This document shows, piece after piece, positions 15,717 to 37,040 of a stretch of 64,000 nucleotides of DNA; within the stretch, counting starts at the first letter, position 1; each line of letters begins with the position of its first letter. This stretch comes from Nitrospirota bacterium (GTDB lineage Bacteria; Nitrospirota; Thermodesulfovibrionia; Thermodesulfovibrionales; Magnetobacteriaceae): assembly GCA_015233895.1 (NCBI GenBank), contig JADFXG010000002.1, forward strand, positions 186,001-250,000. The letters run 5' to 3'. Position numbers and translations under genes: made by a program. The notes beneath the pieces are model-generated. The model was not told the DNA's origin, did not search any database, and saw nothing but the letters and a program-made list of their open reading frames with translations.

Positions 15717-16621
15717 AAAGAGATTTTTTGACCTTTTGGGAACTATCGAAAAATGAAGTTGAAAGCATACTTGAGCGTGCTGCATGTTTTAAAGCAGGAA
15801 ATACCGGCAATAAGAGCTCCCTCAGCGGCAAAAGCATAGGACTGTTCTTTGAAAAATCATCAACACGTACACGGGTTTCTTTTGAGGTGGGGATATATCA
15901 ACTCGGAGGGCAGCCTGTTTACATACGCAGCGGTGACAGCCAGGTGGGGCGCGGCGAATCAATCAGCGACACGGCGCGGGTGCTCTCCCGCTACTTTGAC
16001 GGACTAATTGTACGCACATACGCTCAGGTACGGCTTGAGGAATTTGCAAAGTATAGCACGGCGCCTGTAATAAATGGTTTGAGTGACACACATCATCCCT
16101 GTCAGGTGCTGGCCGATTTGCTTACCATAAAGGAAAGAAAAGGTAAGTTGCAGGGCATTAAATTAACATACCTTGGAGATAGCAATAATGTTACAAATTC
16201 GCTGATTGAGGCCTCACTACGAATGGGAATTGTGCTGTCCATAGCATCCCCGGCCGGGTTTGAGCCTAAGCCTGCTATGATGAAAAAACTCCATGACTTA
16301 GACTATCAGGGAATAAAGATATACAACGACCCTGTTGAGGCTGTAAAACAAGCCGACGTGGTTTATACCGACGTGTGGATAAGCATGGGGGATGAAGAGA
16401 CAGGTCAACAAAAAAAGAAGGACGCCTTAAAACCGTTTCAGATTAACGATGCCCTTTTAAAACATGCAAACCCTGATGTCACAGTGCTGCACTGTTTGCC
16501 AGCCCACAGAGGGGAGGAAATAACCGACAGTGTCATAGACGGCCCGATGAGTGCCGTGTTTGACCAGGCTGAAAACAGGCTGCACACACAGAAGGCTCTG
16601 TTAGAGATGCTAATCGGTTAG
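15713..16621 (+). CDS. argF: Ornithine carbamoyltransferase
   Basis: The 302-residue enzyme makes citrulline from ornithine and carbamoyl phosphate. It shows the carbamoyl-phosphate motif KSSTRTRVSFEVG, the HPCQVLADLLTI segment, the ornithine-binding region (YTDVWISMGDE) and the HCLPAHRG motif with its catalytic Cys. The GTG start overlaps the argD stop (GTGA), so the two arginine genes are translationally coupled. The RNase J gene follows within three bases. Confidence 0.93.
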   Translation: MKRDFLTFWELSKNEVESILERAACFKAGNTGNKSSLSGKSIGLFFEKSSTRTRVSFEVGIYQLGGQPVYIRSGDSQVGRGESISDTARVLSRYFDGLIVRTYAQVRLEEFAKYSTAPVINGLSDTHHPCQVLADLLTIKERKGKLQGIKLTYLGDSNNVTNSLIEASLRMGIVLSIASPAGFEPKPAMMKKLHDLDYQGIKIYNDPVEAVKQADVVYTDVWISMGDEETGQQKKKDALKPFQINDALLKHANPDVTVLHCLPAHRGEEITDSVIDGPMSAVFDQAENRLHTQKALLEMLIG

Positions 16622-16623
16622 CT

Positions 16624-18300
16624 TTGGAGTTACCCACTTTGGCGGCTGGAGTTTCTATAATTCCTCTGGGCGGTGTAGAGGAAATCGGGTTGAATATGAC
16701 AATTTTAGAGACAGACGATTCTCTTATAGTAATAGATGCAGGGCTTATGTTTCCAGAGGAGGGAATGCACGGCGTTGATTTTGTTATACCCGACTATTCG
16801 TACATTTTAGATAATAAGGATAAACTAAGAGGAATAATTATAACCCACGGACATGAAGACCACACGGGGGCACTGCCATTTCTCCTTAAGGATTTAGGCC
16901 CGGATGTGCCAGTCTATGGTACGCTTTTAACCATAGGGTTAATCAAGGATAAACTCAAGGAATATAATGTCAAGGACTTATTGTTTATAATAATTAAGCC
17001 GCGGGACAGGATAACACTTGGCGACTTTACGGTAGAATTCATTCGTGTTGCACACAGTATAGCTGATGGCGTGGGGCTTGCCGTTGAGACCCCTTATGGC
17101 ACAATTATTCACACGGGCGATTTTAAGTTTGATTCAAGCCCAGTGGATGGCGAGTTTCTGGATATATCGAGATTTGCGCATTATGGTGAAAAAGGTGTGC
17201 TGCTTTTGATGTCTGACAGCACAAACGCCGAGCGTGGAGGTTTTACCCCGTCAGAGAAAGTAGTACGGGCTGCCTTTGAGGATGTCTTTGCAAAGGCTGC
17301 AGGACGAATAATTATAGCTACATTTGCCTCAAACATCCACAGAATTCAGCAGGTGGTGGATGTTGCGGTTGAGTTTGGTAAAAAAGTTGTTTTATGCGGC
17401 AGAAGCATAGTGTCAAATGTACGTATAGCAATGGACCTGGGCTACCTGAGAATACCCTTTGATACGTGTCTTAAGGTTGAAGAGATTAAAAACCTTAAAC
17501 CCGGAGAGACAGTCATCGTAACAACAGGGAGCCAGGGAGAGCCCATGAGCGTGTTAACCCGAATTGCCCGCAATGAACATAAGCAGATAAAGGTTAAAAC
17601 CGGAGACACTGTGATAATCTCAGCAAAGGCAATTCCAGGCAATGGCAGAGCGGTTGGTAAAATAATCAATCAACTGTTTAAGATAGGAGCAGATGTAATT
17701 TATGAGAAGGTGGCAGATGTACACGTCTCAGGACATGCCTCGGTTGAAGAGCTTAAACTGATGCTTAATATAACCAAACCAAAATACTTTGTACCCATTC
17801 ACGGTGAGTACAGACACCTTCACCGCCACGCATACGTGGCCAAAACTCTTGGCATTGCTGTAGAAAACATATTTTTACTGTCTAACGGTAACGTGCTTGA
17901 AATCAACCAGCAGGAGGGAGTTCTTGCCGACGGGGTAACTGCAGGGAGAGTTTATATTGAAGGAAAAAACCTCTGTGATATTGGCGATCTGGTGCTTAAG
18001 GAACGGAGGCGGCTTGCTCAGGACGGCGTTGTCATAGTGCTCATTTCAATAGCGAAGGAGGACGGGAGTATAGTCTCAGGCCCCGACATTATAACACGAG
18101 GTTTTGTCTTTGAAAGCTCCTCAAAAGAGATTATGGATGAGGCCAGAGCTCTTATTCTTGAGGCTTTTGCCACTTTTGATGACTCCTTTGTAAAAAGCGT
18201 ATCCAATATATCTGCAAAAGTTAAAAGCATTCTCAGAAAGTTCATAAGAAATAAGACTGAAAAAAGACCGATAATTATGCCGGTTATCGTAGAGGTGTAG
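16624..18300 (+). CDS. rnj: Ribonuclease J
   Basis: This 558-residue metallo-beta-lactamase/beta-CASP nuclease has the zinc motif HGHEDHTGALP (near 80), a later metal Asp (LLLMSDSTNAE), the beta-CASP region (IATFASNIHRIQQVVD), HVSGHAS and PIHGEYRHL. The C-terminal RNase J dimerisation domain is complete. RNase J has both endo- and 5'-to-3' exonuclease activity in mRNA decay. Together with the RNase G gene upstream, the operon-like run carries two 5'-end-dependent ribonucleases. The start is TTG at 16624, three bases after argF. Confidence 0.92.
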   Translation: MELPTLAAGVSIIPLGGVEEIGLNMTILETDDSLIVIDAGLMFPEEGMHGVDFVIPDYSYILDNKDKLRGIIITHGHEDHTGALPFLLKDLGPDVPVYGTLLTIGLIKDKLKEYNVKDLLFIIIKPRDRITLGDFTVEFIRVAHSIADGVGLAVETPYGTIIHTGDFKFDSSPVDGEFLDISRFAHYGEKGVLLLMSDSTNAERGGFTPSEKVVRAAFEDVFAKAAGRIIIATFASNIHRIQQVVDVAVEFGKKVVLCGRSIVSNVRIAMDLGYLRIPFDTCLKVEEIKNLKPGETVIVTTGSQGEPMSVLTRIARNEHKQIKVKTGDTVIISAKAIPGNGRAVGKIINQLFKIGADVIYEKVADVHVSGHASVEELKLMLNITKPKYFVPIHGEYRHLHRHAYVAKTLGIAVENIFLLSNGNVLEINQQEGVLADGVTAGRVYIEGKNLCDIGDLVLKERRRLAQDGVVIVLISIAKEDGSIVSGPDIITRGFVFESSSKEIMDEARALILEAFATFDDSFVKSVSNISAKVKSILRKFIRNKTEKRPIIMPVIVEV

Positions 18301-19194
18301 TTGCACCAAAAATTTGACATTACGTTAAAAGGTTTGTTGAAAGATATACCTGTCAAGTTCCTAAAAATTTTATCTGGTTTTGATAGTGGAAAATTTCTTG
18401 ATACTCAATTGACAAATGTAAATATCCTGATTCCTGACTTGTTAATAGAGCTTCCTGACTTAACTATTTTACACGTAGAAATTATGAGCAATCCTGAGAA
18501 AATGTTGAAGCGGATGTTTCTTTATAATGCACTTATTTTCAATCACTATGACAGGTTACCAAAACAGATACTTTTGTATGTTGGTGACAAACCTTTAAAT
18601 ATTGAAAACAAGATAGGAAATTATTCTTTTGAGATTGTTGATATAAAAGACATAAACTGTTCTGAGTTACTTGAAAGTGACAAACCTGAAGATATAGTTT
18701 TAGCGATATTGTGTAAATCCGAAAACATAGACGTTACTGTCGCTAAGATATTGGAGAAACTATCTGTGCTACCATTAAAGGACAGAGAAGATTATATTTT
18801 GAAATTACTCTATCTATCCGACTTAAGAAAATTATATACTAAAATAAAACAGGAGGTAGAGAAAATGCCTATAACAATTAACTTAGAAGACAGCGATATT
18901 TATAAGGAAGCTGTGGAGAAGGGATTGTCTAAGGGTAAACTGGAGGGCTTGTTTGAGGGTAAACGCGAGGGCTTGTTTGAAGGTAAACGCGAGGGCTTGT
19001 TTGAGGGTAAACGCGAGGGGTTAATAGAGGGCATTGAAGGTATGCTTGAACTCAAATTTGGCATCAATGGACTTGAATTAATGAATATTGTCAGAGCTAT
19101 AAATACATTAGATAAATTGGAGGAGTTGAAAAATCTTATCAGGAAAGCCGGTTCGGTGGATGAATTGAAAGAGTTTTTGGGGAAGAGTGTGTAA
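18301..19194 (+). CDS. Rpn/PD-(D/E)XK transposase-family protein, copy 1
   Basis: This 297-residue member of the Rpn (recombination-promoting nuclease, former transposase_31-like) group begins HQKFDITLKGLLKDIP. Its nuclease core has PDLLIEL, then HVEIMSNP, then QILLYVGDKPL. The usual E-x-Q of the PD-(D/E)XK core reads E-I-M here, so the active site may be altered. The tail has three 8-residue GLFEGKRE-type repeats, followed by the conserved C-terminus that ends DELKEFLGKSV. It starts with TTG directly behind the RNase J stop and ends 12 bases before the M28 peptidase gene. Copies 2 and 4 and a remnant lie elsewhere in the window. Confidence 0.8.
   Translation: MHQKFDITLKGLLKDIPVKFLKILSGFDSGKFLDTQLTNVNILIPDLLIELPDLTILHVEIMSNPEKMLKRMFLYNALIFNHYDRLPKQILLYVGDKPLNIENKIGNYSFEIVDIKDINCSELLESDKPEDIVLAILCKSENIDVTVAKILEKLSVLPLKDREDYILKLLYLSDLRKLYTKIKQEVEKMPITINLEDSDIYKEAVEKGLSKGKLEGLFEGKREGLFEGKREGLFEGKREGLIEGIEGMLELKFGINGLELMNIVRAINTLDKLEELKNLIRKAGSVDELKEFLGKSV
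18943..19014 (+). repeat. 24-bp tandem repeat, three copies, inside Rpn copy 1
   Basis: Three near-identical 24-bp units (GAGGGCTTGTTTGAGGGT + AAACGC) encode the octapeptide EGLFEGKR three times. Length changes here stay in frame, so the linker between nuclease core and C-terminal domain can vary. Confidence 0.85.
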
Positions 19195-19206
19195 AAATAC
19201 TAAAAA

Positions 19207-20082
19207 ATGCTGAATAAGGCTGATATAACAGAAAATCTAAAGAACACTGTTTATTTTTTATCTAAGGAAATAGGCCCAAGGCCATATAGTAACCTTAATG
19301 CCCTGAATAAAACCTCCGACTACATTTCAGCATCTCTTAAAAGTTATGGATACGATGTGTCTTATCAACCATACAAATACAAAGGAAATAATTATAAAAA
19401 TATATACACTGAAATTAAAGGAAACAAAACGCCGGAAATATCAATTGTAATTGGTGCTCATTATGATACAGTATCTACTACTCCGGGGGCTGATGATAAT
19501 TCAAGTGGAGTCGCCGGCTTGCTTGAGATAGCAAGATTATTAGAAAATTCCACCTTTGATAAGACAATTCGTTTCGTTGCATTTACACTTGAGGAACCGC
19601 CGGCTTTCATGACTAAAAATATGGGGAGTTATGTTTATGCCAAAAGTCTGAAGGAGAACAATGAAAATGTCGAATTAATGATATGTTTAGAAATGATTGG
19701 ATACTTCAGTAAAAAACAGAAATACCCTCTTCCTGTTCTTAAGTGGTTTTATCCCCATGAAGGCGATTTTATTTTACTTGCCGGTGATACTAACTCACAG
19801 CATTCCATATCAAAAGTAAAAAATGGCTTTAGAAAAGGAACCGTCATGCCTGTTGAATCCATTACTGCACCCAGGTTTATACCCGGAATTGATTTTTCGG
19901 ACCACAGATCCTTCTGGAAATTTGGCTACAATGCCATTATGGTTACAGATACGGCATTTTACCGGAATCCAAATTATCATAGATCAACAGACACGCCGGA
20001 AACATTGGATTATGACAGTATCACCGAAGTTGTATTGGGGCTTAAATCAGCAATATGTGAAATAGCAAACATTAAGATGTGA
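19207..20082 (+). CDS. M28 family zinc peptidase
   Basis: This 291-residue aminopeptidase-like protein carries the co-catalytic zinc ligands in GAHYDTV and GADDNSSG, the catalytic Glu in TLEEPP, and the later ligands in FSDHRSFW and NYHRSTDTPE. M28 enzymes remove N-terminal amino acids or act on modified peptides. There is no signal peptide, so it is probably cytoplasmic. It sits between two Rpn-family genes. A fragment of a second copy of its 3' end follows the second Rpn gene (21090-21167), which ties this gene to the Rpn locus by duplication. Confidence 0.85.
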   Translation: MLNKADITENLKNTVYFLSKEIGPRPYSNLNALNKTSDYISASLKSYGYDVSYQPYKYKGNNYKNIYTEIKGNKTPEISIVIGAHYDTVSTTPGADDNSSGVAGLLEIARLLENSTFDKTIRFVAFTLEEPPAFMTKNMGSYVYAKSLKENNENVELMICLEMIGYFSKKQKYPLPVLKWFYPHEGDFILLAGDTNSQHSISKVKNGFRKGTVMPVESITAPRFIPGIDFSDHRSFWKFGYNAIMVTDTAFYRNPNYHRSTDTPETLDYDSITEVVLGLKSAICEIANIKM

Positions 20083-20178
20083 ATAATTGATATTCATTAT
20101 TTGCTGTTAAAGCTGCTTTATATATTATGAAAATATTCATGTATGTTATTATAAGAAAATAGAATAAAGGGATTTTAA

Positions 20179-21075
20179 ATGCCACAATATTATGACATTA
20201 CACTGAAAAGTATCTTGAAAGAGTTGCCACGAAAATTTATGAAGATATTAACTGGATTTGAAACGGCAAAATTTCTGGACGTTCAATTTCCTGACATTAG
20301 GTACAGGCAACCAGATTTGCTGGTGGAACTCCCAGATGACACGTTGTATCATATGGAGATGCAAGCACAAAATGATGGCAACATGGATTGTAGAGAACTG
20401 GAGTATTATCATCTGATATTCTGCGAGTTTAGGAAATCTGTTACCCAAGTGGTTTTATATGTAGGCTCAGAAAAACTGAAGATGAGTAACGAAATTAAAG
20501 CAAAAGGTTTACATTTCACCTATCAGATAATAGATATCAGAGATATAAATTGCCGAGAACTTCTTGAAAGTGATGATCCGGGTGATAATATTTTGGCAAT
20601 CCTTTGTAAGACAGATGATGCCGATGGAACAATAAAGGGAATTCTTGCAAAATTATATGAATTACCGCCTGAGGAAAGAGAAAACTATATTCTAAAATTA
20701 CTAACCCTGTCAAGGCTAAGGGGTTTAACAAAATCCGTAGAAAGGGAGGTTAAAAAAATGCCGGTAACTATTGATGTGAGTACAGATGTACTTTATTTGG
20801 AGGGCATGGAGAAGGGCTTACTTGAGGGTAAACAAGAAGGGAAGTTAGAAGGGTTACTTGAAGGTGAACGGAAAGGCTTACTTGAAGGTGAACGAAAAGG
20901 CTTGCTTGAGGGAATTGAGTTAGGACTTGAACTTAAATTTGGTTCAGCCGGACTTGAGTTGATGAATACAGTCAAAGCTATGAATACTATAGATAAACTG
21001 GAAGAATTTAAGAATTATATCAAGAAAGCCGGTTCAGTGGATGAATTGAAAGAGTTTTTAGGAAAGAATATATAA
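20179..21075 (+). CDS. Rpn/PD-(D/E)XK transposase-family protein, copy 2
   Basis: This 298-residue paralogue of copy 1 has the same order: DITLKSILKELP start, nuclease core (PDLLVEL, HMEMQAQND, QVVLYVGSEKL), a helical middle, a Gly/Glu/Lys repeat tail and the ending DELKEFLGKNI. Unlike copy 1, it keeps E-x-Q, so the catalytic core looks intact. Known Rpn proteins raise recA-independent recombination and cut DNA. Here the role is inferred by family. It is preceded by an AT-rich gap of about 95 bases and a modest ribosome site (AAAGGGA). Confidence 0.82.
   Translation: MPQYYDITLKSILKELPRKFMKILTGFETAKFLDVQFPDIRYRQPDLLVELPDDTLYHMEMQAQNDGNMDCRELEYYHLIFCEFRKSVTQVVLYVGSEKLKMSNEIKAKGLHFTYQIIDIRDINCRELLESDDPGDNILAILCKTDDADGTIKGILAKLYELPPEERENYILKLLTLSRLRGLTKSVEREVKKMPVTIDVSTDVLYLEGMEKGLLEGKQEGKLEGLLEGERKGLLEGERKGLLEGIELGLELKFGSAGLELMNTVKAMNTIDKLEEFKNYIKKAGSVDELKEFLGKNI
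20862..20910 (+). repeat. 24-bp tandem repeat, two copies, inside Rpn copy 2
   Basis: Two near-identical units of GGCTTACTTGAAGGTGAACG + AAAA encode LLEGERKG repeats. They sit at the position of the copy-1 array, but with a different sequence, so the repeats have expanded independently. Confidence 0.7.
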
Positions 21076-21089
21076 AGCTTACAATAGTG

Positions 21090-21167
21090 CCGACAGATGC
21101 GATTTGTATTCTTTATGGAGTTGTACTGGGGCTTAAGTCCACAATATGTGAGATAGCAAGCGTTTAA
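21090..21167 (+). pseudogene. 3' remnant of a second M28 peptidase gene
   Basis: Read in frame from 21090, this stretch gives PTDAICILYGVVLGLKST + ICEIASV and a stop. The peptidase gene upstream ends with VTDTAFY ... EVVLGLKSAICEIANIKM. The last 18 codons are clearly homologous at the DNA level, and the TDxxxx segment before them also aligns, with about two dozen codons missing between. It is a collapsed second copy of the peptidase 3' end left behind Rpn copy 2. Confidence 0.7.
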
Positions 21168-21187
21168 ACCTCCAATGCCATGGTAGT

Positions 21188-24100
21188 TTATTTCAATTTT
21201 AAAAATTCCTCATGTGCAGTATTTACAGCATAATGAATCTGCTCCTCCGTGTGATTTGCCATAACGAAAAATCTTACTCTTGTTGCATCCTCGCTAACAG
21301 CAGGAAAAAGTATCGGCATTGCAAGAATTCCTCTGTCAAATATGGCATTGGCAAGCTTGAGTGTTTTTATTGAGTCACCGATAATGACGGGTATTATGGC
21401 TGTACCATTACTGGTTCCGGTGTTAAGTCCTTTTTCCTTTGCGAGTGTTAGAAAGAGGCTTGACAGATAATGCAGACGGGCTACCCGATAAGGCTCTTTT
21501 TTTATCGTTTCAAGTGAGGCTATTGCAGCAGCCGTATTTGCCGGTGTTATGCTGGTTCCAAAAATATATCCAGGTGTTGTCAATCTGAGATATTTAATCA
21601 GTTCCTTCGAACCGGCAATGTATCCCCCACAACTCCCAATAGCCTTACTTAACGTCCCCATCCACACATCCACATCTGAGCGGTTAACGTTATAATGCTC
21701 TCCAACTCCACCGCCATTTTTCCCCAAGACACCTATCGAATGAGCCTCATCTATCATAAGTAATGCCTTGTGGCGTTTCTTTATTTCAATAATTTTGGGA
21801 AGATTCGGAATATCCCCGTCCATGCTGTAAGTTCCTTCTATAAGAATAAGAACTTTCTTATACATGGCTCTCTCTTTCTTTAAAATAGCATCGAGAGCCT
21901 CCCAATCATTATGCGGGAAAGTTATTTTTCTTGCACCCGACAAAAGACTTCCCTGAACAGCGCTCATGTGCATATAAAGATCATGTACGATTAGATCACC
22001 GGAGCCGACCAGCGTTCCAACTATGGTTTCGTTTGTACCAAACCCGCTTGGCAACACCAGGCTGTCTTCACAGTTAAGGAATTCAGCCAATACCCTCTCC
22101 AGTTTCTTGTGAAGCGGGGTTAATCCTGTTATTGGATTAGTAGCTGAAACTGATGTGCCATATGTTTTGATAGCGTCTATAGAGGCATTACATACCGAAC
22201 TGTCACAAGACAGCCCCAGATAGTTGAAAGTTGCAAAGTTTATCAAGTCACTGCCGTTTATGTTCATAGTGCTTCCGGCCATACCGTTATTGACCTGAAA
22301 GTACGGATTTCTAATTCCTAACGATTCCCACAGGGCTAATCTGTTACTCCATTCTATATATTTCGGAAACTTATCGAACCGGTAATATTGTTCATCTATT
22401 TCATCCAACACAACCGTTTCTTTGGCAGATATTTCCAAAACATCATCCGAAACAGGTGTAATCCTATCAGAAGGCAATTTCAACGGAGTTTCACTTATAA
22501 CAGGCGCTTCACAAGCAATATAGGCTGCTAACTTCTCTATAGTCGGGTATTCATAGAATAGCCTTTCTTCAAGCGAATGCCCCAACGCTGATTGCAAATC
22601 AGCCATTATCTGCACAACCATAAGGGAATCAATGCCGTATGTGAATAAGTCCCGTTTGTTGTCCATTTCTTTTGAGGGGATCTTCAGATGTAACGATATT
22701 TTACTTACAAGCCATCTGTCTAATTTACAAATATCCTTATCACAGCCATCGAGTTTTTCACACTGATCTTCAACTGATTCATCCCTTACAGGTTCTGTAT
22801 CTTTTAACGCCCACAACTTTTCTATCTCCCCTGTTTCATAACCATGACGCAACCGATGACGTTGAATCTTACCGCTTGATGTCATTGGAATACTATAGGG
22901 ACGCAGCAACACAACGTCATAGACAGATAGTTCATGCTCCTCTGCTACAGCCTTACGTATCGCATTGGCAATAACCTCAGGTGGAAGAACATCGGCATCT
23001 CCATGTGATTGGGATGTTTTGTTTGATGTCTTTTGATGTACGCTGCAGGCATTTCCAGCTATAGATTCTCTGTCTTTTAAAATATCTCTCAAGCCAGTTA
23101 AATATCCACTATTTACCTCTATGGCGACAATAAGCTTCTCTTCTCCGTTTACTTCTGTAGAAAAAGCACCACAAGCACCCACTCTTATTGGTCTTGTCCC
23201 ATTTACATCAAAAGAAATCTCATCTACTGTCCACTCTATATCCTGAGGATAATAGTTCTGTCCACGGATTATTATCATATCCTTGATACGACCAGTAACA
23301 AACAGACTGCCATTAAATATAAACCCGGAATCACCTGTCCTTAAAAAAGGACCGTCTCCGGTATCGGATAAATATGCCTGAAAGGTTTGTTTAGTCGCCT
23401 CAGGATTATTCCAATACCCTTTTGCCACATTTTTGCCAGATATCAATATCTCACCAATCTCTCCGACAGGTTTTGTAGCGTTGGTCTCAGGGTCGGCTAT
23501 AACAATCTTTTCGTCAAGCCATGGCTTGCCATTTCCAACTAATATCTTTGTTCCTTTCCCGTTATTACCTTCATTACCTGTTAAAACCACACGATTACGT
23601 TCAAGTTCATTTGTAAGTAAAGATTTATACACCTGTAAGTCCCCACGCTCTCCGCCGGTTGCAAACAGCGTAACCTCGGCAAGTCCATAAGCCGGATATA
23701 GCGTTTCTCTTTTAAGTCCATACGGTGAGAATGCCTCGTAAAAACGATCCATTGTGCTGCTGTTAACCGGTTCAGAGCCGGATAGGGCAATCTTCAAGTG
23801 CGATAAATTAAGTCCTTGTTTTTGTTCATCCGTTATTTGACGTGCACATAGTTCATATGCGAAGTTTGGTGCAAGAGTTACAGTAGCTTTATAATCGGAT
23901 ACAGCTTTAATCCAACATATTGGTTTCTGTAGAAAAGAGATTGGGGCCATAAAATAAAGACGCATCCCCATATAAATAGGGGAAAGTACCTGACCTATCA
24001 ATCCCATATCATGAAACAGAGGACTCCACCCAACGGCAATGGAATCTTCTGATAAGTTAATTGCAGATTGGAGCATTAGTTCATTATAAATAATGTTTTC

Positions 24101-24661
24101 GTGGGTTATCATTACTCCTTTAGGTTTAGCTGTCGATCCGGAAGTGTATTGGAGAAAAACTATATCGTCTGCATTAACCAAATTTTCCCAATAGTCTTTT
24201 GCGTTATCCTCGCTAATGGTTTCTGTTGAGACCCATGGTAAATCTTTTAGTGACAGATCCTCTTTATACATTGGTTTTATTTTATTTACGATATTGGATT
24301 TGCTAAGAATAACGGATGGTTTGGAATCATCTATTATGGATTTAAACCTGTCAAGTTTTTGATTCCTTTTTGGGGGATAAGCAGGGACAGCAATAATGCC
24401 GGCATAAACACAGCCAAAAAACGCACAGATAAAATCCAGGCCGGATGGGTATGCTAAAATCGCTCTTGATCCTCTATGGTATGACCTTTGAAGTTCAACG
24501 GCAATTGAACGGGCTTTCTTATCAAGCTCAGCATAAGTCAAAGATATGCCGTTTCCCTCACCATCAGGTAAGAAAGTATAAGCAACCCTATCCGGATGCT
24601 TATTTACTCTAAACCGGAGTAAATCAACCAATGTTGAGATATTACTAAACTTGTCAGTCAT
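21188..24661 (-). CDS. FAAL-ACP-alpha-oxoamine synthase fusion
   Basis: This 1157-residue three-part enzyme begins with a fatty acyl-AMP ligase-type domain (1-610: YTSGSTAKPKGV, SPLFHDMGLIG, LAPNFAYELC, RTGDSGF, GRIKDMIIIRGQNYYPQDIE). An acyl carrier domain follows (about 645-720) with the phosphopantetheine Ser in YGIDSLMVV, near 675. The last part is a PLP alpha-oxoamine synthase domain (about 780-1157: FNYLGLSCDS, GTYSMDGDIPNL, MIDEAHSIGVLG, Lys near 1006 in GTLSKAIGS). By family logic it activates a fatty acid, loads it on the ACP domain, and condenses it with an amino acid with loss of CO2 to give an alpha-amino ketone, as in sphingoid-base or CqsA/BioF chemistry. It is last in the operon. 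The product is unknown. Confidence 0.88.
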   Translation of the reverse strand: MTDKFSNISTLVDLLRFRVNKHPDRVAYTFLPDGEGNGISLTYAELDKKARSIAVELQRSYHRGSRAILAYPSGLDFICAFFGCVYAGIIAVPAYPPKRNQKLDRFKSIIDDSKPSVILSKSNIVNKIKPMYKEDLSLKDLPWVSTETISEDNAKDYWENLVNADDIVFLQYTSGSTAKPKGVMITHENIIYNELMLQSAINLSEDSIAVGWSPLFHDMGLIGQVLSPIYMGMRLYFMAPISFLQKPICWIKAVSDYKATVTLAPNFAYELCARQITDEQKQGLNLSHLKIALSGSEPVNSSTMDRFYEAFSPYGLKRETLYPAYGLAEVTLFATGGERGDLQVYKSLLTNELERNRVVLTGNEGNNGKGTKILVGNGKPWLDEKIVIADPETNATKPVGEIGEILISGKNVAKGYWNNPEATKQTFQAYLSDTGDGPFLRTGDSGFIFNGSLFVTGRIKDMIIIRGQNYYPQDIEWTVDEISFDVNGTRPIRVGACGAFSTEVNGEEKLIVAIEVNSGYLTGLRDILKDRESIAGNACSVHQKTSNKTSQSHGDADVLPPEVIANAIRKAVAEEHELSVYDVVLLRPYSIPMTSSGKIQRHRLRHGYETGEIEKLWALKDTEPVRDESVEDQCEKLDGCDKDICKLDRWLVSKISLHLKIPSKEMDNKRDLFTYGIDSLMVVQIMADLQSALGHSLEERLFYEYPTIEKLAAYIACEAPVISETPLKLPSDRITPVSDDVLEISAKETVVLDEIDEQYYRFDKFPKYIEWSNRLALWESLGIRNPYFQVNNGMAGSTMNINGSDLINFATFNYLGLSCDSSVCNASIDAIKTYGTSVSATNPITGLTPLHKKLERVLAEFLNCEDSLVLPSGFGTNETIVGTLVGSGDLIVHDLYMHMSAVQGSLLSGARKITFPHNDWEALDAILKKERAMYKKVLILIEGTYSMDGDIPNLPKIIEIKKRHKALLMIDEAHSIGVLGKNGGGVGEHYNVNRSDVDVWMGTLSKAIGSCGGYIAGSKELIKYLRLTTPGYIFGTSITPANTAAAIASLETIKKEPYRVARLHYLSSLFLTLAKEKGLNTGTSNGTAIIPVIIGDSIKTLKLANAIFDRGILAMPILFPAVSEDATRVRFFVMANHTEEQIHYAVNTAHEEFLKLK

Positions 24662-24710
24662 TATTTTTTTTCCTTTTATTTATTCTCACTAATATATTTC
24701 CATTTAACTA

Positions 24711-25529
24711 CTACGCATTTAACCCAATCTTCTTCTTATAAAACATCTCTACAACCTCTCTGTCGAATGGATTTACAATCATACCTGCATCGGCAATGAC
24801 TGATTGCCCATTGATAGCGCTTGAGCTGCCGCTTAATAAAAACGCTATCACGTTGGCTATTTCTTTTGTTTCAATTGCTGCTTTTCTAAATGTTAAAGCA
24901 TCTGTATAAAGAGATAGTTTTATAAAGTCTGGAATTCCTGCGGCTGAAGATGTTCGTATGACGTTTGATGAAACAACATTAAATCTAACCTGTGAAAATT
25001 GACTGAACGACTGTGCAAGATATACCACTGACGATTCTAAAGCAGCTTTTACAGGAGCCATATAACTGTAGTTTTCAATAGCTATTTTAGTAAATGGAAC
25101 AGAAAGTGTAACCACTGAGGCGTTGTTATCAAGTACGTCTTTGAAAGCACAAGACAGACTGATTAAAGAGTAACAGGATATGTCAATCGCCTGAAGGAAA
25201 TCCACCTTTCTTGTCTCATGAAATGGTTTAAGTCCTTCCGAAAAGTTGGCAAATGCTATAGAGTGTAACATTCCGTCTATTTTACTATGTTTGCTTGAGA
25301 CATCTTTATAGAGAATTGCTATCTCATCCTGGTTTTCTACATTACAAGTAAAGATATCAGTATCTGGTATAAACTGTTGTACTTTTTCTTTTACGGTAGC
25401 GTCTTTTACTACATAAATACACTCTGCTCCTTCATCCACAAGGCACTTTGCTGCAAAATATGCAATGCTTTTTTTATTAAACACTCCCACAATCAGAAAC
25501 TTCTTGCCCTCTAACTGCAAAAAACTCAT
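24711..25529 (-). CDS. FabI-like enoyl-ACP reductase (divergent SDR)
   Basis: The 272-residue short-chain dehydrogenase resembles FabI. GVFNKKSIAYF matches the FabI nucleotide loop (G-x5-SIA). ENYSYMAPVKAALE gives the Tyr-x6-Lys pair, and NVIRTSSAAGIPDF parallels the FabI PIRTLAASGI loop. The second FabI tyrosine, ten residues before the catalytic one, is Val here (TLSVPF instead of LSYLG), so it may be a specialised paralogue rather than the housekeeping enzyme. It is encoded between ACP (4-base overlap) and the FAAL-ACP-AOS gene, and so probably reduces an intermediate on that pathway. Confidence 0.8.
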   Translation of the reverse strand: MSFLQLEGKKFLIVGVFNKKSIAYFAAKCLVDEGAECIYVVKDATVKEKVQQFIPDTDIFTCNVENQDEIAILYKDVSSKHSKIDGMLHSIAFANFSEGLKPFHETRKVDFLQAIDISCYSLISLSCAFKDVLDNNASVVTLSVPFTKIAIENYSYMAPVKAALESSVVYLAQSFSQFSQVRFNVVSSNVIRTSSAAGIPDFIKLSLYTDALTFRKAAIETKEIANVIAFLLSGSSSAINGQSVIADAGMIVNPFDREVVEMFYKKKIGLNA

Positions 25530-25774
25530 TTTAGTTTTGCCTCAAGATAATCTACTGTGCTTTTCATGCTTTTTAAATGTGGAAAATCCTCATCTGGTAT
25601 TTCTATTGCGTATTTTCTCTGAAGTGCCATCACAACATCAAGAAAATCCATGCTGTCCATCTCCATCATGTTACTAAATGGCAGCTCTGTGTCCTCAATT
25701 GTGGAACAATCTACCTCAGTCATAACGTCCTGCATTATCCCTATCACAACATCCATAATTTCTTTTCTTGTCAT
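25526..25774 (-). CDS. Acyl carrier protein
   Basis: This 82-residue acidic helical protein has the phosphopantetheine attachment Ser in EMDSMDFLD. It diverges from housekeeping AcpP (usually DSLD), so it is likely pathway-specific. Its stop overlaps the start of the FabI-like gene by four bases, and the ketoacyl synthase gene lies 27 bases upstream in the same direction. It probably carries the growing or modified acyl chain used by the ketosynthase, reductase and FAAL-ACP-AOS proteins. No phosphopantetheinyl transferase is encoded nearby. Confidence 0.88.
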   Translation of the reverse strand: MTRKEIMDVVIGIMQDVMTEVDCSTIEDTELPFSNMMEMDSMDFLDVVMALQRKYAIEIPDEDFPHLKSMKSTVDYLEAKLK

Positions 25775-25801
25775 TTCGCATTTCTCCCGTTTGTGTATGT
25801 T

Positions 25802-27034
25802 TTATTCATATTTTTTTATTATAACTGTAGAATTAATACCTAACATTCCAAAGGAATTATTTAGAATATATCGTATCCCGTCTAATTTTATAGGCTCATT
25901 TCTTACTATATTTGTAATCATACATTCAGCATCGAGATTATCTAAATTTAATGTGTGATGAATAAAACCATCGGTAAAAGAGGGCAGTTCACCAGCAAGC
26001 TCAAGTGCCCCAGCAGCTCCCATCGTGTGTCCAATATAGCTTTTAGTGTTCGTAATATAAACACTGTTATGTTTACCGAATATGTTATAGATAGCCCTGC
26101 CCTCTGTTTTGTCGCCCAGAGGTGTTGACGTTGAGTGAGCATTTATAATGCTAATATCCTGCGGTTCAAGTACTGCCCTGCGGAGAGCCTTAACCATACA
26201 TTGCTCCTGCCGCTCCTGATTAGGTGCTACATAGTCTGAGGCGTCCGTATTTATCCCATAGCCGACTAACTCACCATAGATTTTTGCCTTTCTTGCTAAA
26301 GCATCATCTAACCTTTCCAGTATGTATAAACAACCGCCTTCCGATATTACTATACCGTTTCTATCAGTATCGAAAGGTCTGCAAGCCTTTTGAGGGTCGT
26401 TGTTATTAGCAAGGGCACCTTCATTTCTAAAGCTTGCAAAACATAGAAATGTTCTTATACTTTCAGACACCCCACCGCATATAGCCAAATCAACCTCGTC
26501 TAACATAAGCATTTGTGCACCGTGAATAAGACCAATGTTACCTGCTGCACAGGCTGCTCCTAAAGTGTAATGCGGTCCGGTTATTCCAAGATTAAGAGCA
26601 ATCTCTCCTGCAGGATTATTTGATATAGTCTTTGGATTAAAAAGATGGGATACGTATTTCAGATTGTATCCGTAATCCTTTATAGCCATTATTTCCTCTG
26701 TTGCTTCTGCTGCACCATGCTCGGTAATTCCAACATATATTCCTATATTGGATTTATCCAAAACGGCTAAATTAATACCTGCATCTTTTAACGCCTCATG
26801 AGCACAGTATATGCCGATTGATGCTGCTCTGGTACCTCTTCTTCTCTCTTTTTTTGACTGATATTTGCTTTCGTCATAAACGCAAACGCCAGCTATAACC
26901 TCACCCATAAGTTTCTCTTTATAAAGAGTAACACCTGATTTGCCCTCAAGGAGATTTTTCCTGAACTCGGCAAGATTGTTACCGTTAGGCGATGTTAAAC
27001 CCACTCCTGTAATTACAATTCTTTTGTTTTTCAT
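25802..27034 (-). CDS. Beta-ketoacyl-ACP synthase (FabF/KAS II-like)
   Basis: This 410-residue thiolase-fold condensing enzyme has the Cys-His-His set: Cys in LGAACAAGN, His in INAHSTSTPLGD and His in YIGHTMGAAGALE. It extends or builds an acyl-ACP by decarboxylative Claisen condensation. The presence of both His residues argues for a condensing enzyme, not a chain-length factor. It stands between the nitronate-monooxygenase-like gene (16 bases) and the ACP gene in the operon. No ketoreductase or dehydratase is encoded here, so those steps, if needed, must come from the general FAS. Confidence 0.88.
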   Translation of the reverse strand: MKNKRIVITGVGLTSPNGNNLAEFRKNLLEGKSGVTLYKEKLMGEVIAGVCVYDESKYQSKKERRRGTRAASIGIYCAHEALKDAGINLAVLDKSNIGIYVGITEHGAAEATEEIMAIKDYGYNLKYVSHLFNPKTISNNPAGEIALNLGITGPHYTLGAACAAGNIGLIHGAQMLMLDEVDLAICGGVSESIRTFLCFASFRNEGALANNNDPQKACRPFDTDRNGIVISEGGCLYILERLDDALARKAKIYGELVGYGINTDASDYVAPNQERQEQCMVKALRRAVLEPQDISIINAHSTSTPLGDKTEGRAIYNIFGKHNSVYITNTKSYIGHTMGAAGALELAGELPSFTDGFIHHTLNLDNLDAECMITNIVRNEPIKLDGIRYILNNSFGMLGINSTVIIKKYE

Positions 27035-27050
27035 TCTCTTTCAGTCACAT

Positions 27051-28118
27051 TTATAAATGTAATAAAGTCTCCTCTATGAGGTTCCTTACCAATGATTTGA
27101 CAGATATTATTTCGTTGCACCGATGAGCATTCGCGCCAGCAAAAGCAAACCCTTCATCGAGGTTACCTTCGGCAGCATTAAATAAAGCCTTGGCAATGCA
27201 GTAAGGAGCAGTTTTAGGGTCACAGGTTTTTAAGCAAAGATATGTACATTTAAAAGGAATAGTTTCCCCTTTGAATATCCTCTCCACAAATTCGTTTCGA
27301 ATAACCCTACCAGGCAGCCCTACTGGACTTTTTATTATCACTAAATCTTCTTCTTTCGCATCTAACCATGCCTGTTTGAAATTCTCATGGACATCGCATT
27401 CATATGTACAGACGAACCGGCTTGCCATTTGAACACCGGAAACACCTAATTTTAGATATTTCGCAATCTCACCGCCATCAAATATCCCTCCTGCCGCTAT
27501 TACAGGAATTGGCGGAGTGTATGAGTTCGCAATCTCAAGGATATCAGTTACAATCTGCTCAAGACTTTGTGCCTTATTCTCTACAATATCTTTATAAGTA
27601 AACCCAAGATGACCCCCTGCCTTAGGGCCTTCAACTATAACAGCATCGGGTATCTTGTTATAATTGTGGCTCCAAAATTCACATATAAGCTTAAATGTCC
27701 TGACTGACGATACGATTGGTAACAGCTTGACATCTTTTCCATCAAGGTATTTGGGGAGATCCACAGGCATACCTGCACCGGAGATAATTATATCTACACC
27801 CTCTTCAACTGCGGCTTTAACGAACCGTTGATAATCAGATACGGCATACAAAATATTAATGCCTATTATCCCGTTAGTTAAACTCCGCGCCTTCTTGATT
27901 TCGTCTTTTAATGCCTTTACTCTAACCTCACCATCTGCATTGTTTTTACCAGATATGGTATATCCTAATCCCGTAGCGGCAATTACACCAATGCAACCCT
28001 CATTTGCAGCAGATGAAGCCAATCCAGCAAGAGATATTCCCACACCCATCCCGCCTTGAATTATCGGAACTTCAGCCGTTAAATTCCCTATTTTTAGTTG
28101 TGGCAGGCTTTTACTCAT
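27051..28118 (-). CDS. Nitronate monooxygenase/FabK/PfaD-like flavoprotein
   Basis: This 355-residue FMN TIM-barrel protein shows IIQGGMGVGIS at the N-terminus, GAGMPVDLP, VEGPKAGGHLGF with the conserved His, and the phosphate-binding AAGGIFDGGEIAKYLKLG. Members oxidise nitronates (Nmo) or act as enoyl reductases (FabK, PfaD). Given its place at the head of an acyl-ACP operon, an FMN-dependent enoyl reductase is an attractive reading, but not proven. The C-terminal Cys-rich segment CTYLCLKTCDPKTAPYC is notable. The start ATG at 28118 has a weak ribosome site. Confidence 0.82.
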   Translation of the reverse strand: MSKSLPQLKIGNLTAEVPIIQGGMGVGISLAGLASSAANEGCIGVIAATGLGYTISGKNNADGEVRVKALKDEIKKARSLTNGIIGINILYAVSDYQRFVKAAVEEGVDIIISGAGMPVDLPKYLDGKDVKLLPIVSSVRTFKLICEFWSHNYNKIPDAVIVEGPKAGGHLGFTYKDIVENKAQSLEQIVTDILEIANSYTPPIPVIAAGGIFDGGEIAKYLKLGVSGVQMASRFVCTYECDVHENFKQAWLDAKEEDLVIIKSPVGLPGRVIRNEFVERIFKGETIPFKCTYLCLKTCDPKTAPYCIAKALFNAAEGNLDEGFAFAGANAHRCNEIISVKSLVRNLIEETLLHL

Positions 28119-28466
28119 AACACCATAGTGACACCAAACGTGGCTTAAAAAGATTCTGGAGTTGATTGAAGCAAATACAGGTTATGTATATAACGAAAGC
28201 ATAATTGAAAGATACATATTTAAATTTGAATAGAAATTTTCTTAATATTAAAGGAGCACTAGAGAGAGAGAGAGAAGCAAAAAATACGCCATTTTGCACT
28301 CTTTAATTTACAAACCAACATCTTCCCTCCCAAAAACATTTTTTAAACTACTACAGGATAATAAACAAATAAAAATGCAATGTCAAGTAAAATTTTCTAA
28401 TATTTTTAATATGTTACAAAAGTAGCCAAAAATGCTAATATAATTGAAATAGAGACAGTAGGGCTG
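28119..28466. other. Gene-free stretch with a coding remnant and a GA repeat
   Basis: This is upstream DNA of the five-gene operon (minus) and must hold its promoter, but I see no convincing boxes. On the plus strand, 28128-28231 reads TWLKKILELIEANTGYVY + NESIIERYIFKFE + stop. That looks like the 3' end of a lost gene I cannot name. A (GA)n run of eight units lies near 28261-28277. The remainder is AT-rich with no feature. Confidence 0.4.
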
Positions 28467-28750
28467 ATACCGCAGTATTATGATATTACTCTGAAGAGTA
28501 TTTTGAAAGCGTTGCTATGAAAATTCTTGAAGATATTGACTAGATTTGAGACTACAAAGTTTCCTGACATGCTATTTTCTTACAAAATTATATGAATTGC
28601 CACTTGAGGAAAGAACAGACTATGTTTTAAAATTACTAACCTTGCCAAGGCTAAGAGTTTTGAAAGAATCCGTAAAAATGGAGGTTCATAATCTTATCAG
28701 GAAAGCCGGTTCAGTAAATGAATTAAAGGGGTTTTGGGTAATAATGTATA
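28467..28750 (+). pseudogene. Collapsed Rpn-family gene remnant
   Basis: The first 100 bases (QYYDITLKSILKALL in the original frame) closely match Rpn copy 2, but a CGA codon has become TGA. The sequence then jumps to the middle (TKLYELPLEERTDYVLKLLTLPRLRVLKESVK) and jumps again to the C-terminus (NLIRKAGSVNELKGF), where it matches copy 1 better than copy 2. Two internal deletions and at least one stop make it a pseudogene. A short sequence AAAATGCTAA...GAAATAGAG occurs on both sides (28433-28455 and 28764-28797). The latter resembles the 5' end of the M28 gene. Confidence 0.8.
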
Positions 28751-28914
28751 ATATTGTTGAGCTAAAAATGCTAAGTTTGGCCATAACTGAAATAGAGTAA
28801 GTTTTAACGCACTTATTCATGTTCAATAGACAGTGTAAACCCTTGAGATGAAATATGAAATATATTTTGCGTTATCAAGTACATTATACGAAATAATTTA
28901 ATGGAGGGAATGTA

Positions 28915-29703
28915 GTGGAGATATTTCAGGCAATTGTTTTAGGTATAGTGCAGGGAGTAACGGAGTTTTTTCCGATAAGCAGCACGGCTCATCTGATTTT
29001 AATACCGTGGTTTTTTGGATGGACCGGGGCTGTGGATTCACTTGAGTTTGATATTGCTCTGCATGTTGGCACTTTGCTTGCGCTTGTTACGTTTTTTTTC
29101 AAAGACTGGTTGGAAATGTTTTTTAAAAAACACAAGAGAAGGCTTCTTTATCTAATTATAGTGGCAACTGTACCGGGAGCAATAGCCGGTAAGCTGCTTG
29201 ATAAGTATGCAGAGACCTCGTTAAGAAGTCCGCTGATAATAGCGGTTAGCCTGATTGTGGTTGCGATAGCTATGTTTATTTCTGAACGGGTTGGAATCAA
29301 AGTACAGACAGCTGAAAAGTTAAGTTACTTAGATGCAGTGTTAGTTGGCATAGCACAGGCTTTTGCCATAATTCCAGGAGTGTCACGCTCCGGTGGCACT
29401 ATTACTATGGGTATGTTTTTAGGAATGAAAAGAGATGAAGCTGCAAGGTTTTCTTTTTTAATGTGTACTCCGATTGTAGCAGGGGCTGCAGCTTTGCATG
29501 GGTATCATATACTGAAAGCACATAGTGCAGGCTTTAACATGCCGATGTTTGTCTTTGGTGTGCTTGCCTCTTTTATATCAGGGGTGTTAACAATTAAATT
29601 TCTACTGTCTTTTTTTAAGAGATTTTCATTAAACGGTTTTGTTTATTACAGGATTGTTCTTGCTCTGGTAATAATAGCTACGATGGTATGGCAGAAGTCG
29701 TAA
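28915..29703 (+). CDS. uppP: Undecaprenyl-diphosphatase
   Basis: This 262-residue integral membrane enzyme (BacA/UppP family) recycles undecaprenyl pyrophosphate to the monophosphate carrier used in peptidoglycan and polysaccharide assembly. The two catalytic motifs are visible: GVTEFFPISSTAHLIL near the N-terminus and PGVSRSGGTI in the second half. About eight hydrophobic segments are present. The start is GTG at 28915 with a GGAGGG ribosome site. It overlaps ftsK by 16 bases. Confidence 0.93.
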   Translation: MEIFQAIVLGIVQGVTEFFPISSTAHLILIPWFFGWTGAVDSLEFDIALHVGTLLALVTFFFKDWLEMFFKKHKRRLLYLIIVATVPGAIAGKLLDKYAETSLRSPLIIAVSLIVVAIAMFISERVGIKVQTAEKLSYLDAVLVGIAQAFAIIPGVSRSGGTITMGMFLGMKRDEAARFSFLMCTPIVAGAAALHGYHILKAHSAGFNMPMFVFGVLASFISGVLTIKFLLSFFKRFSLNGFVYYRIVLALVIIATMVWQKS

Positions 29704-31760
29704 AGGGAATAAAGTATGAGATAAAGGGGCTTATAGCCGTATTATTAGCGCTCTTTACGGCAACGTCTCTGCTTACTTATAACAAGTGGGACCCCTCCCC
29801 TTTTACCTATACCGATACATCCGCCAGTAACTATTGCGGCGTTGTCGGCTCATACTTTGCAGACATATTGCTGTCTTTTATTGGCAGCTGTGCGTTTATA
29901 TTCCCGTTTTTTCTGTTTTACTATGGGTTGAGGAGGCTTCTTGGCTCTGTAAAGAAAAAAGAAAACCTTGTTGGCACACTGCTTTTGTTAATTACGCTGC
30001 CTATGGTTTTCGCTCTTGTTGCCGATACATTTAACACAATGGCAGTGCGTGGAGGGTTATTTGGCGTTGTTTTGATTAATATTCTAAAAAAACCATTCTC
30101 TCCGGTGTTTGCATACATTGTGACACTGTCGGTTTTTTATACATCAATAGCTCTGATGCTGCCGATTAACCTGACATCTATATCTTTCAGACGGAATCCT
30201 AAGGCAAAGAGCGATCCAATTACTGTTGCCACTGGTGAGACTCCTAAAGACAGCGGCATAGAGCCAGACTTTAAAATCATCAAACATAAAGAGGAGCCGC
30301 CTGAGGAGGAAAGGAAACACACAGTGGCAGTACGGCAGTTTAAGATGATGCCGGAGGTGCGCGAGGGCCAGTACACGCTTCCTAAAGTGGAATTGTTAAG
30401 CAACAATGATACTGAAAAGTATGAACTCACCAGAGAGGAGTTGATCCTGGCTGCCGACATTTTAAAAAACAGGCTTTCGGATTTCAATGTCGATGGGAAA
30501 ATCTCTCAGGCACACCCCGGCCCTGTTATAACCATGTATGAGTTTGAACCGGCACCGGGTGTTAAAATCAGCAAAGTGGTGTCCCTCTCTGATGACCTTG
30601 GGCGTGCTATGGGCGGAATTAAAGTAAGAGTGTCATTAATACCCGGCAAGACCCCAATAGGAATAGAGGTGCCTAATGAAAAAAGAAGTGTGGTCAGCCT
30701 AAAGGAAATTATAGCGTCAGACAGGTTTGTTAAAAAGAGTTCACTGTTAACACTGTGTATGGGTAAGGACATCTATGGTAACCCTATAGTGGAGGACCTT
30801 GCCAGAATGCCGCACCTTCTTGTAGCTGGAACAACGGGCTCAGGTAAAAGTGTAGCCATAAATTCGATGATTATGAGTATCCTTTTTAAAGCTAAACCCT
30901 CGGAGGTAAAAATGCTGATGGTTGACCCGAAACTCCTTGAGCTTTCAATCTATGAGGGAATACCACACCTGATTTCAAATGTTATAACAAGCCCTAAAGA
31001 AGCCTCAGACGCTCTAAAGAAAATGCTGCTTGAGATGGAACGCCGTTATCGTCTGATAGCCGGACAAGGGGCAAGAAACATAGAGATGTTTAATGCCTCA
31101 GTGGCCGATGAGGAAAAACTCCCCTACATTATAGTGATCATAGATGAGCTGGCAGATTTAATGTTTACGGCGGCAAAAAATGTGGAGGACTCAATTGTGC
31201 GCCTTGCGCAGATGGCACGAGCATCCGGGATACATCTGATTGTGGCCACACAGAGGCCCTCAGTGGATGTCATAACGGGGATAATCAAGGCTAATTTCCC
31301 GTCAAGGGTGGCATTTATGGTGTCCTCAAAGGTTGACTCAAGGACGATTCTGGACACTCACGGGGCGGAAAAGCTGCTTGGCCGCGGAGACATGCTGATG
31401 CTTAGCCCAGGCGCTAAGATAACCCGCGTACACGGCGCTTTTGTGGATGAAAGTGAGATAAAAGCTGTCGTTGATTTTGTTAAATCACAGGGACGGCCGG
31501 ATTATTCTATTTTTGAAAATCTGATAATGGAGGAGGCACAATCTGCCGACACTGACGCCACAAGCAGTGACAAAGATGACGTGTATAAAGATGTAATCAA
31601 GTATGCCCAAACTATGGGAGAGGTATCAATATCCTCAATACAGAGACGGTTTAAGATAGGCTATAACAGGGCGGCGCGTATAATGGATATGCTGGATGAG
31701 GACGGACTTGTAGGGCCTCCCAAGGGTGCAGGGAAACCAAGGGATTTTGTTTCCAATTGA
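29688..31760 (+). CDS. ftsK: FtsK/SpoIIIE DNA translocase
   Basis: The 690-residue protein has an N-terminal membrane domain of about four helices (residues 10-165), a short linker, the RecA-like motor (Walker A GTTGSGKSVAINS, Walker B YIIVIIDELADL) and a C-terminal winged-helix gamma domain (DVIKYAQTMGEVSISSIQR) that reads chromosome orientation sequences. It pumps DNA through the closing septum and activates XerCD. The short linker is typical outside Enterobacteria. The start lies inside the uppP 3' end, which implies coupled translation of two envelope/division genes. Confidence 0.93.
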   Translation: MAEVVKGIKYEIKGLIAVLLALFTATSLLTYNKWDPSPFTYTDTSASNYCGVVGSYFADILLSFIGSCAFIFPFFLFYYGLRRLLGSVKKKENLVGTLLLLITLPMVFALVADTFNTMAVRGGLFGVVLINILKKPFSPVFAYIVTLSVFYTSIALMLPINLTSISFRRNPKAKSDPITVATGETPKDSGIEPDFKIIKHKEEPPEEERKHTVAVRQFKMMPEVREGQYTLPKVELLSNNDTEKYELTREELILAADILKNRLSDFNVDGKISQAHPGPVITMYEFEPAPGVKISKVVSLSDDLGRAMGGIKVRVSLIPGKTPIGIEVPNEKRSVVSLKEIIASDRFVKKSSLLTLCMGKDIYGNPIVEDLARMPHLLVAGTTGSGKSVAINSMIMSILFKAKPSEVKMLMVDPKLLELSIYEGIPHLISNVITSPKEASDALKKMLLEMERRYRLIAGQGARNIEMFNASVADEEKLPYIIVIIDELADLMFTAAKNVEDSIVRLAQMARASGIHLIVATQRPSVDVITGIIKANFPSRVAFMVSSKVDSRTILDTHGAEKLLGRGDMLMLSPGAKITRVHGAFVDESEIKAVVDFVKSQGRPDYSIFENLIMEEAQSADTDATSSDKDDVYKDVIKYAQTMGEVSISSIQRRFKIGYNRAARIMDMLDEDGLVGPPKGAGKPRDFVSN

Positions 31761-36446: not shown

Positions 36447-36806
36447 ATGAAAAATGTTAATTCAGTAAGGTTGTTTCTGATTTTGTTAGCAATAACTGTA
36501 ACAACTCTAATGGTAGGAGGATGTGCCGGGTTAGAACAGGCACATCATGAATATTTGATGAAGGGAACTATCTTAGAAAAAACAGGCGATGAGGTGTATC
36601 TTTGTATAGGTACTAAAGATGGAGCTCAGGTTGGCCAGGAATTGAACGTGTATCTAACCAGAAGAGTTATCGGCAAGGGCACACACACAGATTGGGAGCG
36701 TGTGTTTACGGGAAAAGTAAAAATCACGGAAATTGTTGATGAACATTTTGCAAAAGGTAAGGTTATCTCTGGAACAGTTAAGGAAAATGATATAGCCGAA
36801 TTGTGA
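36447..36806 (+). CDS. Small predicted lipoprotein
   Basis: This 119-residue protein has a lipoprotein signal peptide (lipobox VGGC, Cys near residue 27). The mature part is about 90 residues (GTILEKTGDEVYLCIGTKDGAQVGQELNV), reads as a small beta-barrel, and recalls FlgT-C-like or SH3-like folds. The function is unknown. A good ribosome site (AGGAGG) precedes the ATG. The gene has the same operator as the cytochrome c operon and the Gly/Met/Asn protein, so it likely belongs to the same two-component regulon. A palindromic element ending in a T-run lies downstream. Confidence 0.75.
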   Translation: MKNVNSVRLFLILLAITVTTLMVGGCAGLEQAHHEYLMKGTILEKTGDEVYLCIGTKDGAQVGQELNVYLTRRVIGKGTHTDWERVFTGKVKITEIVDEHFAKGKVISGTVKENDIAEL

Positions 36807-36840
36807 TAATGTTTATTGCCTATGTAGATAACTCCGTTAA

Positions 36841-36939
36841 TAGAAAAACTGGATTCCTGCTTTCGCAGGAATGACAGAAACAGATAATCCCATCCTCTGT
36901 CATTCCCGCCTACGAGCGGGAATCCAGTCCCTTTTTCTA
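36841..36939. repeat. Long inverted repeat (REP-like), possible terminator
   Basis: Two arms of about 31-33 bases (ACTGGATTCCTGC...GAATGACAGA and its imperfect complement) flank a 17-base centre. Each arm itself contains a small hairpin (ATTCCTGC/GCAGGAAT and ATTCCCGC/GCGGGAAT). The plus strand ends in CCTTTTTCTA. It resembles dispersed REP-type elements and could terminate the lipoprotein transcript. Confidence 0.75.
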
Positions 36940-37040
36940 CTTTGAAAAACATAGAAACATGCCTACTTAGAAACCTGAAAACACTCTGCCGGAATTAACT
37001 CCGTAAACATTTAAACTTTTTAATGCAGCCTCACAGAAAA

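Follow-up and report, generated by a model that had tools for sequence, protein, structure and literature searches.

How did one locus come to hold two Rpn-like genes, an intact gene for an M28-family peptidase and a scrap of a second such gene, placed in alternation? The locus lies in a 64,000-nucleotide stretch (the window; C2:186001–250000) of the 3.7-Mb, 65-contig genome of a Nitrospirota bacterium, labelled G000, and a sequence-only reading had described it as a duplicated Rpn–M28 unit whose second peptidase gene was mostly deleted. The order given there, Rpn copy 1 (Rpn1, window positions 18301–19194), M28 (19207–20082), Rpn copy 2 (Rpn2, 20179–21075) and an M28 3′-end fragment, is borne out by open reading frames (ORFs), Pfam matches and alignment; features lie on the forward strand unless stated otherwise. 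Comparison with three genomes of the same genus (g1; congeners G001, G002 and G003) points to a different origin. Recombination between Rpn tails probably brought a block of 9,558 bp into the 3′ end of a resident Rpn-like gene, the wider setting being a genus in which that tail appears to be an exchangeable module.

The three congeners preserve the empty site. In each of them the RNase J gene (16624–18300 in the window, assigned by Pfam and syntenic in all three as the left flank) is followed by a single Rpn gene and then by the counterpart of the right-flank gene at 28915–29703, which we take to be uppP/bacA-like and which is next to Rpn1 by synteny; the block is absent. Window positions 16601–19211 and 28675–30000 align to the left and right parts of one unbroken congener sequence, so that about 9.56 kb is extra in the window. 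Orthologues of Rpn1 stand directly after RNase J, at 94.9% in G003 (over 16601–19211) and 77.7% in G002; the orthologue of G001 has its N domain deleted and its tail frameshifted. Joining the flanks of the window at the shared repeat restores a sequence that agrees with G003 at 1006 of 1056 positions, with G002 at 822 of 1012 and, where alignable, with G001 at 442 of 508.

The same alignment places the ends of the block at 19132 and 28689, inside the Rpn1 tail. The block is bounded by a perfect 23-nucleotide direct repeat, with one copy at the left junction within the Rpn1 tail (19132–19154) and the other at the right junction (28690–28712); overlapping loci of the same place aside, the repeat occurs in no other examined locus of this genus, and one copy was found in G005. 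An Rpn remnant noticed earlier at 28467 is real but chimeric: up to about 28689 (28467–28689) it consists of degraded sequence from the 5′ region of another Rpn gene, a third one and of the Rpn2 type, and from there on it is the decayed original tail of Rpn1 (28690–28758), out of frame, 75.8–87.1% identical to the tails of the three congeners and continuous with their 3′ flank. The intergenic segment that follows (28759–28914) is 95.5% identical to that of G003. Insertion of the block into the Rpn1 tail is, on these alignments, highly likely.

A short stretch at 28768 had been likened to the start of the M28 gene. Its alignment score of 19 was equalled by 487 of 2000 shuffles, which is chance level, and G001, G002 and G003 all carry it yet are without M28, so the likeness is ruled out. 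It matches the intergenic DNA between Rpn1 and the uppP-like gene in G003 (72 of 80 positions), G001 (65 of 81) and G002 (67 of 77). Because the same stretch separates the two genes in three M28-free congeners, it is evidently ancestral intergenic DNA.

These pieces suggest a course of events. Recombination between Rpn tail sequences would have let the block into the 3′ tail of Rpn1, whose frame would have stayed intact by adopting the tail brought with the block; the resident tail would have been pushed 9.6 kb downstream, fused to half an Rpn gene, and left to decay. The simplest route would be a single crossover with a circle carrying one Rpn gene, M28, Rpn2, the M28 remnant and an operon. 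The circle's own Rpn gene would have been split by the crossover, its 5′ part now lying at 28467–28689 and its 3′ part at 19132–19194, which would account for every piece, including the half Rpn genes at both ends. Two crossovers with linear DNA would serve too, and we put the chances of a circular donor at even. We infer homologous recombination as the agent; that an Rpn nuclease drove the event is unlikely, and sequence cannot separate such a role from RecA-type homology. Recombination at this spot, one of several possibilities raised by the sequence-only reading, is borne out by the block insertion.

The genes themselves are called Rpn-like because they score below curated family cut-offs. 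Against TIGR01784 (cut-off 52.1 bits), Rpn1, Rpn2 and the copy at locus L208 reach 13.9, 22.2 and 32.7 bits; PF12784 (19.9 bits) and PF04754 (18.9 bits) match the L208 copy only, under their cut-offs, and no PADLOC model matched. Comparisons within the genus use 30 coding sequences (CDS), which are stop-free frames of about 780 bp or longer from 43 stretches around Rpn loci plus the two window copies; partial, broken and contig-edge copies (for example L198–L205, L207, L214, L218, L219, L228 and L229) and the N-deleted Rpn1 of G001 fall outside the set. An AlphaFold model of Rpn2 (pLDDT 83), based on an alignment of 26 of the 30, has its best matches among solved structures in proteins of the PD-(D/E)XK type, namely EndoMS/NucS (Z 7.4 and 7.3), Card1 (6.4) and several restriction enzymes, all of them weak (Z below 8; Foldseek E 0.012). 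Residues D46 and E60 of the N domain are invariant in the 26 sequences. The C-terminal part of the model consists of a long helix (residues 204–259) and two shorter ones (271–283 and 287–297); there was no sequence match in the PDB, and RpnA-S (PDB 7TH0) is absent from the fold listings for the whole model, the tail not having been searched alone.

Rpn1 comprises a nuclease-like domain, an internal start, four-residue repeats and a tail. Its internal Shine–Dalgarno (SD) sequence AGGAGG and ATG (18865), at 18851–18867, form a predicted RpnS start, and Rpn2 has an internal ATG at 20758. Judged as a sequence signal alone, the internal ATG is present in 30 of 30 CDS and the SD in 29 of 30; SD-like signals recur in the two further genera examined (g2 and g3), in 20 of 21 genes of one and 23 of 23 of the other, from a subset of the listed Rpn copies (40 stretches, 44 ORFs). 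Counted from the internal methionine, the LELK-type motif lies at a multiple of four residues in all 33 genes measured (the 30 CDS and three solo tails). Five solo tail genes (L195, 10889–11191; L198, 8472–8783; L200, 3386–3807; L214, 7922–8314; L218, 7067–7426) consist of precisely the portion that begins at the internal ATG, with an open frame from there to the stop in all five and an SD in four (the L198 copy being without); a sixth solo tail is the frameshifted Rpn1 orthologue of G001. These stand-alone genes are candidate free antitoxins, and the full-length genes appear to follow the RpnL/RpnS plan, from which we infer toxin and antitoxin roles. Nuclease, SOS, antitoxin and phage-defence functions are those given for Rpn proteins in two reports (PMC5350276 and PMC10327210).

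Rpn1 and its G002 and G003 orthologues read E-I-M where other copies have E-x-Q. Since the replaced glutamine is called characteristic of the Rpn family (PMC5350276), this subgroup may have weak activity or none. Another Rpn gene of the window, at 63119–63999 on the reverse strand, has its repeat array out of frame and is divided into separate N-domain and tail ORFs.

Across the 30 CDS, tails and nuclease domains have separate histories. The two halves of the nuclease domain vary together (Mantel r 0.97); the tail correlates with them at 0.17 and 0.21, and at 0.01 among 345 divergent pairs. In tree tests the N-domain tree fails on the tail data (delta lnL 97.9; AU test p 9.3e-9), and the tail tree fails on those of the N domain. 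Across the array of 12-nucleotide repeats, the apparent seam of exchange, correlation with the N domain drops from 0.90 to 0.16. Genes with nearly the same nuclease domain (N distance 0.07) can have dissimilar tails (tail distance 0.24), and genes with widely different nuclease domains (0.55) can have similar tails (0.13). Genus g3 repeats the uncoupling in weaker form (r 0.36; 0.19 in divergent pairs), and in genus g2 tail and N domain are tightly coupled (r 0.96; usable tail in 210 of 253 pairs). It is thus highly likely, from these comparisons, that tails have been exchanged among nuclease families in this genus. Rpn1 itself shows tail replacement twice, by the block insertion and, in G003, by a replaced tail patch, where the gene body is 97.0%, the last 63–69 nucleotides 73–76% and the 3′ flank 95.5% identical. 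No account of Rpn paralogues exchanging their tails turned up in the published work searched, to which subscription literature mostly did not belong.

Rpn loci of G000 often lie close to rearrangements. A comparable congener stretch was available for 10 of the 17 Rpn places of G000; in 8 of these 10 the alignment is broken no more than 250 bp from the gene, and in 6 no more than 100 bp from it. Other aligned DNA contains 4–6 breaks in 75 kb, giving p values for the enrichment of 6e-5 to 3e-4 at 250 bp and 1e-3 to 3e-3 at 100 bp. A bolder extension would make the Rpn-like genes of these genera a recombining network, in which a shared antitoxin-like tail is swapped between nuclease domains at the 12-nucleotide seam and tails serve as docks for cargo blocks entering and leaving, possibly helped by a recombination-promoting activity of the nuclease; we regard this as speculative and rather doubtful. 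Relative to G003, the Rpn gene at 63119–63999 carries an insertion 10 bp from its 3′ end, a 2.7-kb stretch (60419–63131) that overlaps a gene resembling those for sensor kinases. Contigs end in Rpn genes at L203, L204 and C88. A dispersed repeat of about 200 nucleotides at 36805–37015 has dozens of matches in G001, and another repeat, at 49058–49172 and 53464–53655, recurs in many copies and in both orientations in G003 and G001. Long ORFs in a recurrent 2-kb partner near Rpn loci were read as putative multicopy sensor-type genes, and the partner was set aside.

Some observations weigh against entry of the block by tail recombination. Its junctions are those of the assembled contig, and the left crossover point is blurred because donor and resident tails are alike. 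A shared run of at least 23 nucleotides occurs in 11% of tail pairs; with about one pair in nine sharing such a run, its length alone is weak evidence, and where the repeat lies counts for more. Few loci enter the break tally, which mixes assemblies and was compiled by eye from BLAST blocks, and 2 of the 10 loci are without such a break (L193, and L194, which has a 400-bp duplication only). No plasmid, phage or viral record with Rpn2 was present in the collections searched. Tail distances within and between genomes are about equal, which also leaves within-genome gene conversion unsupported as the source of alike tails.

The alternative that survives best is that Rpn loci are merely permissive, tolerant gaps after core genes gathering insertions in which Rpn sequence plays no part. 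Rpn genes do often lie directly downstream of other genes, and the tally that speaks for Rpn sequence is small and includes some breaks outside Rpn DNA. Both junctions here, however, fall within the Rpn tail at a shared repeat, and exchange of tails between nuclease families requires exchange among the Rpn genes themselves; we therefore regard purely permissive sites as unlikely.

Next comes the tandem duplication of an Rpn–M28 unit, with loss of most of the second peptidase and joint movement of the two genes. The intact peptidase is secure (PF04389, E 2.5e-30, 106.1 bits against a cut-off of 21.3), and a real second M28 3′ end does follow Rpn2, with mostly silent or mild changes, so that the sequence-only reading was right to see a mostly lost peptidase gene there. 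The remnant (21119–21167) aligns at 21119–21164 to the 3′ end of the intact gene with 39 of 46 nucleotides identical (85%) and continues to an in-frame stop at 21167; its score of 57 was matched by none of 2000 shuffles, of which the best reached 32. Its end had been placed correctly, and its start, given as 21090, lay too far left, homology beginning at about 21115–21119. Four of the seven differences are synonymous, too few for a test, and fit a second, divergent M28 gene that would have changed while coding and been lost later.

The unit as such does not hold. Rpn1 is an old resident and Rpn2 belongs to a different subfamily, 56% identical to Rpn1 in amino acids and 89% to a G002 copy at a different place; the 5′ flank of Rpn2 (20086–20178), common to other Rpn loci, matches stretches at five of them at E ≤ 3e-4 and at eight at E ≤ 0.04. 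The genome has 26 Rpn matches at about 20 places and a single M28 of the window's family, which is missing from the three congeners, and no M28 was found in the 43 stretches around Rpn loci (41 with an Rpn hit). Conversely, no Rpn was found in 75 stretches around M28 genes, three of which are longer stretches around genes already counted, a null of little power because Rpn is on record for few of the genomes concerned. The nearest relatives of the peptidase in named collections are in Nitrospirae/Thermodesulfovibrionia assemblies; its nearest relative in a genome of the same family is at 63%. The proposal that Rpn and M28 move or amplify together thus fails, and M28 is ruled out as a mobile partner of Rpn by its absence near the other Rpn loci examined and in the congeners. 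With the 28768 stretch no M28 start either, duplication is refuted for the locus as a whole and is an improbable account of it, local duplication of Rpn and M28 inside the block being possible.

Could the block instead be ancestral and deleted in three congeners, or the contig misassembled at Rpn repeats? Recombination between the 23-nucleotide repeats would indeed remove the block cleanly, and Rpn genes do stand at contig ends in these assemblies; yet repeated clean losses, the nearest relative included, are less simple than one gain, and 23 nucleotides is short for an assembly error. The contents of the block are, in order, an Rpn tail, M28, Rpn2, the M28 remnant, a fatty-acid/polyketide synthase (PKS)-like operon and the degraded Rpn gene, the last preceded by a region (28179–28466) that likewise lies upstream of Rpn genes in G003. 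The operon (21188–28118, reverse strand) has five genes, for an AMP-ligase/carrier/aminotransferase fusion, a FabI-like reductase, a carrier protein, a ketosynthase and an NMO-like protein; from its domains, it possibly yields a fatty-acid-derived amino ketone. G003 holds a divergent form of most of the operon elsewhere (76–86% in DNA, apparently without the AMP-ligase fusion), which argues against this alternative. A 4.1-kb G003 contig, C88, matches window 20974–25121 at 99.7% but spans neither junction and was not used as support. It may belong to a near relative whose contigs were binned together with those of G003, since that genome has two contig versions (C88 and C250 against C236) of the region, at about 98–100% and 88–96% over window 48–56 kb. 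Together, deletion and misassembly seem improbable.

Least likely of all, to the point of being barely credible, is that tails are alike through strong protein constraint with no exchange: tail pN is indeed about 0.16 regardless of the N domain, but tree tests reject a single history, near-identical N domains carry unlike tails and the converse, and constraint alone fails as an explanation because the same region in g2 diverges in step with its N domain.

Entry of the block through the Rpn tail has a classical parallel. In Campbell-type integration, or rearrangement at dispersed repeats, direct repeats flank the block and joining the flanks restores the empty site. The window is alike in the half genes at both block ends and in the empty site regained on joining; it differs in that a protein-coding, antitoxin-like tail forms the repeat and that none of the block genes was recognised as an integrase or transposase. 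More generally, no recombinase was found among the recognised genes (M28, Rpn2 and the five operon genes), small ORFs not having each been scanned. A second parallel is rpnC, inserted independently more than once between panC and panD in Enterobacteriaceae, likewise a case of repeated separate changes at one Rpn-linked place (Kingston 2017, PMC5350276). There the Rpn gene is the insert; here it is where a 9.6-kb block went in, with its tail swapped.

Rpn proteins were originally put forward as promoters of recombination; a later preprint (PMC10327210) reports them as anti-phage toxin–antitoxin systems whose two products must co-evolve because one gene encodes both. Tails uncoupled from nuclease families within one genus, set against a neighbouring genus that serves as a coupled control, call that rule into question and supply natural nuclease/tail pairs with which to ask where in the tail specificity lies; to these the window adds a tail swap and a cargo insertion that apparently came in a single event. 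The closest known system is RpnL–RpnS of Escherichia coli (Kingston 2017, PMC5350276; Zhong 2023, PMC10327210), with which the genes described here share an internal start (SD plus ATG), an array of four-residue repeats whose length is always a multiple of four, genes made of the tail alone, a high copy number and a patchy distribution; the model adds a possibly PD-(D/E)XK-like N domain and a predicted helical tail at the C terminus. They differ in scoring below the cut-offs of TIGR01784, PF12784 and PF04754, and in their tails: those of E. coli are described as highly variable and toxin-specific, whereas here one tail type appears to have been exchanged across unlike nuclease domains.

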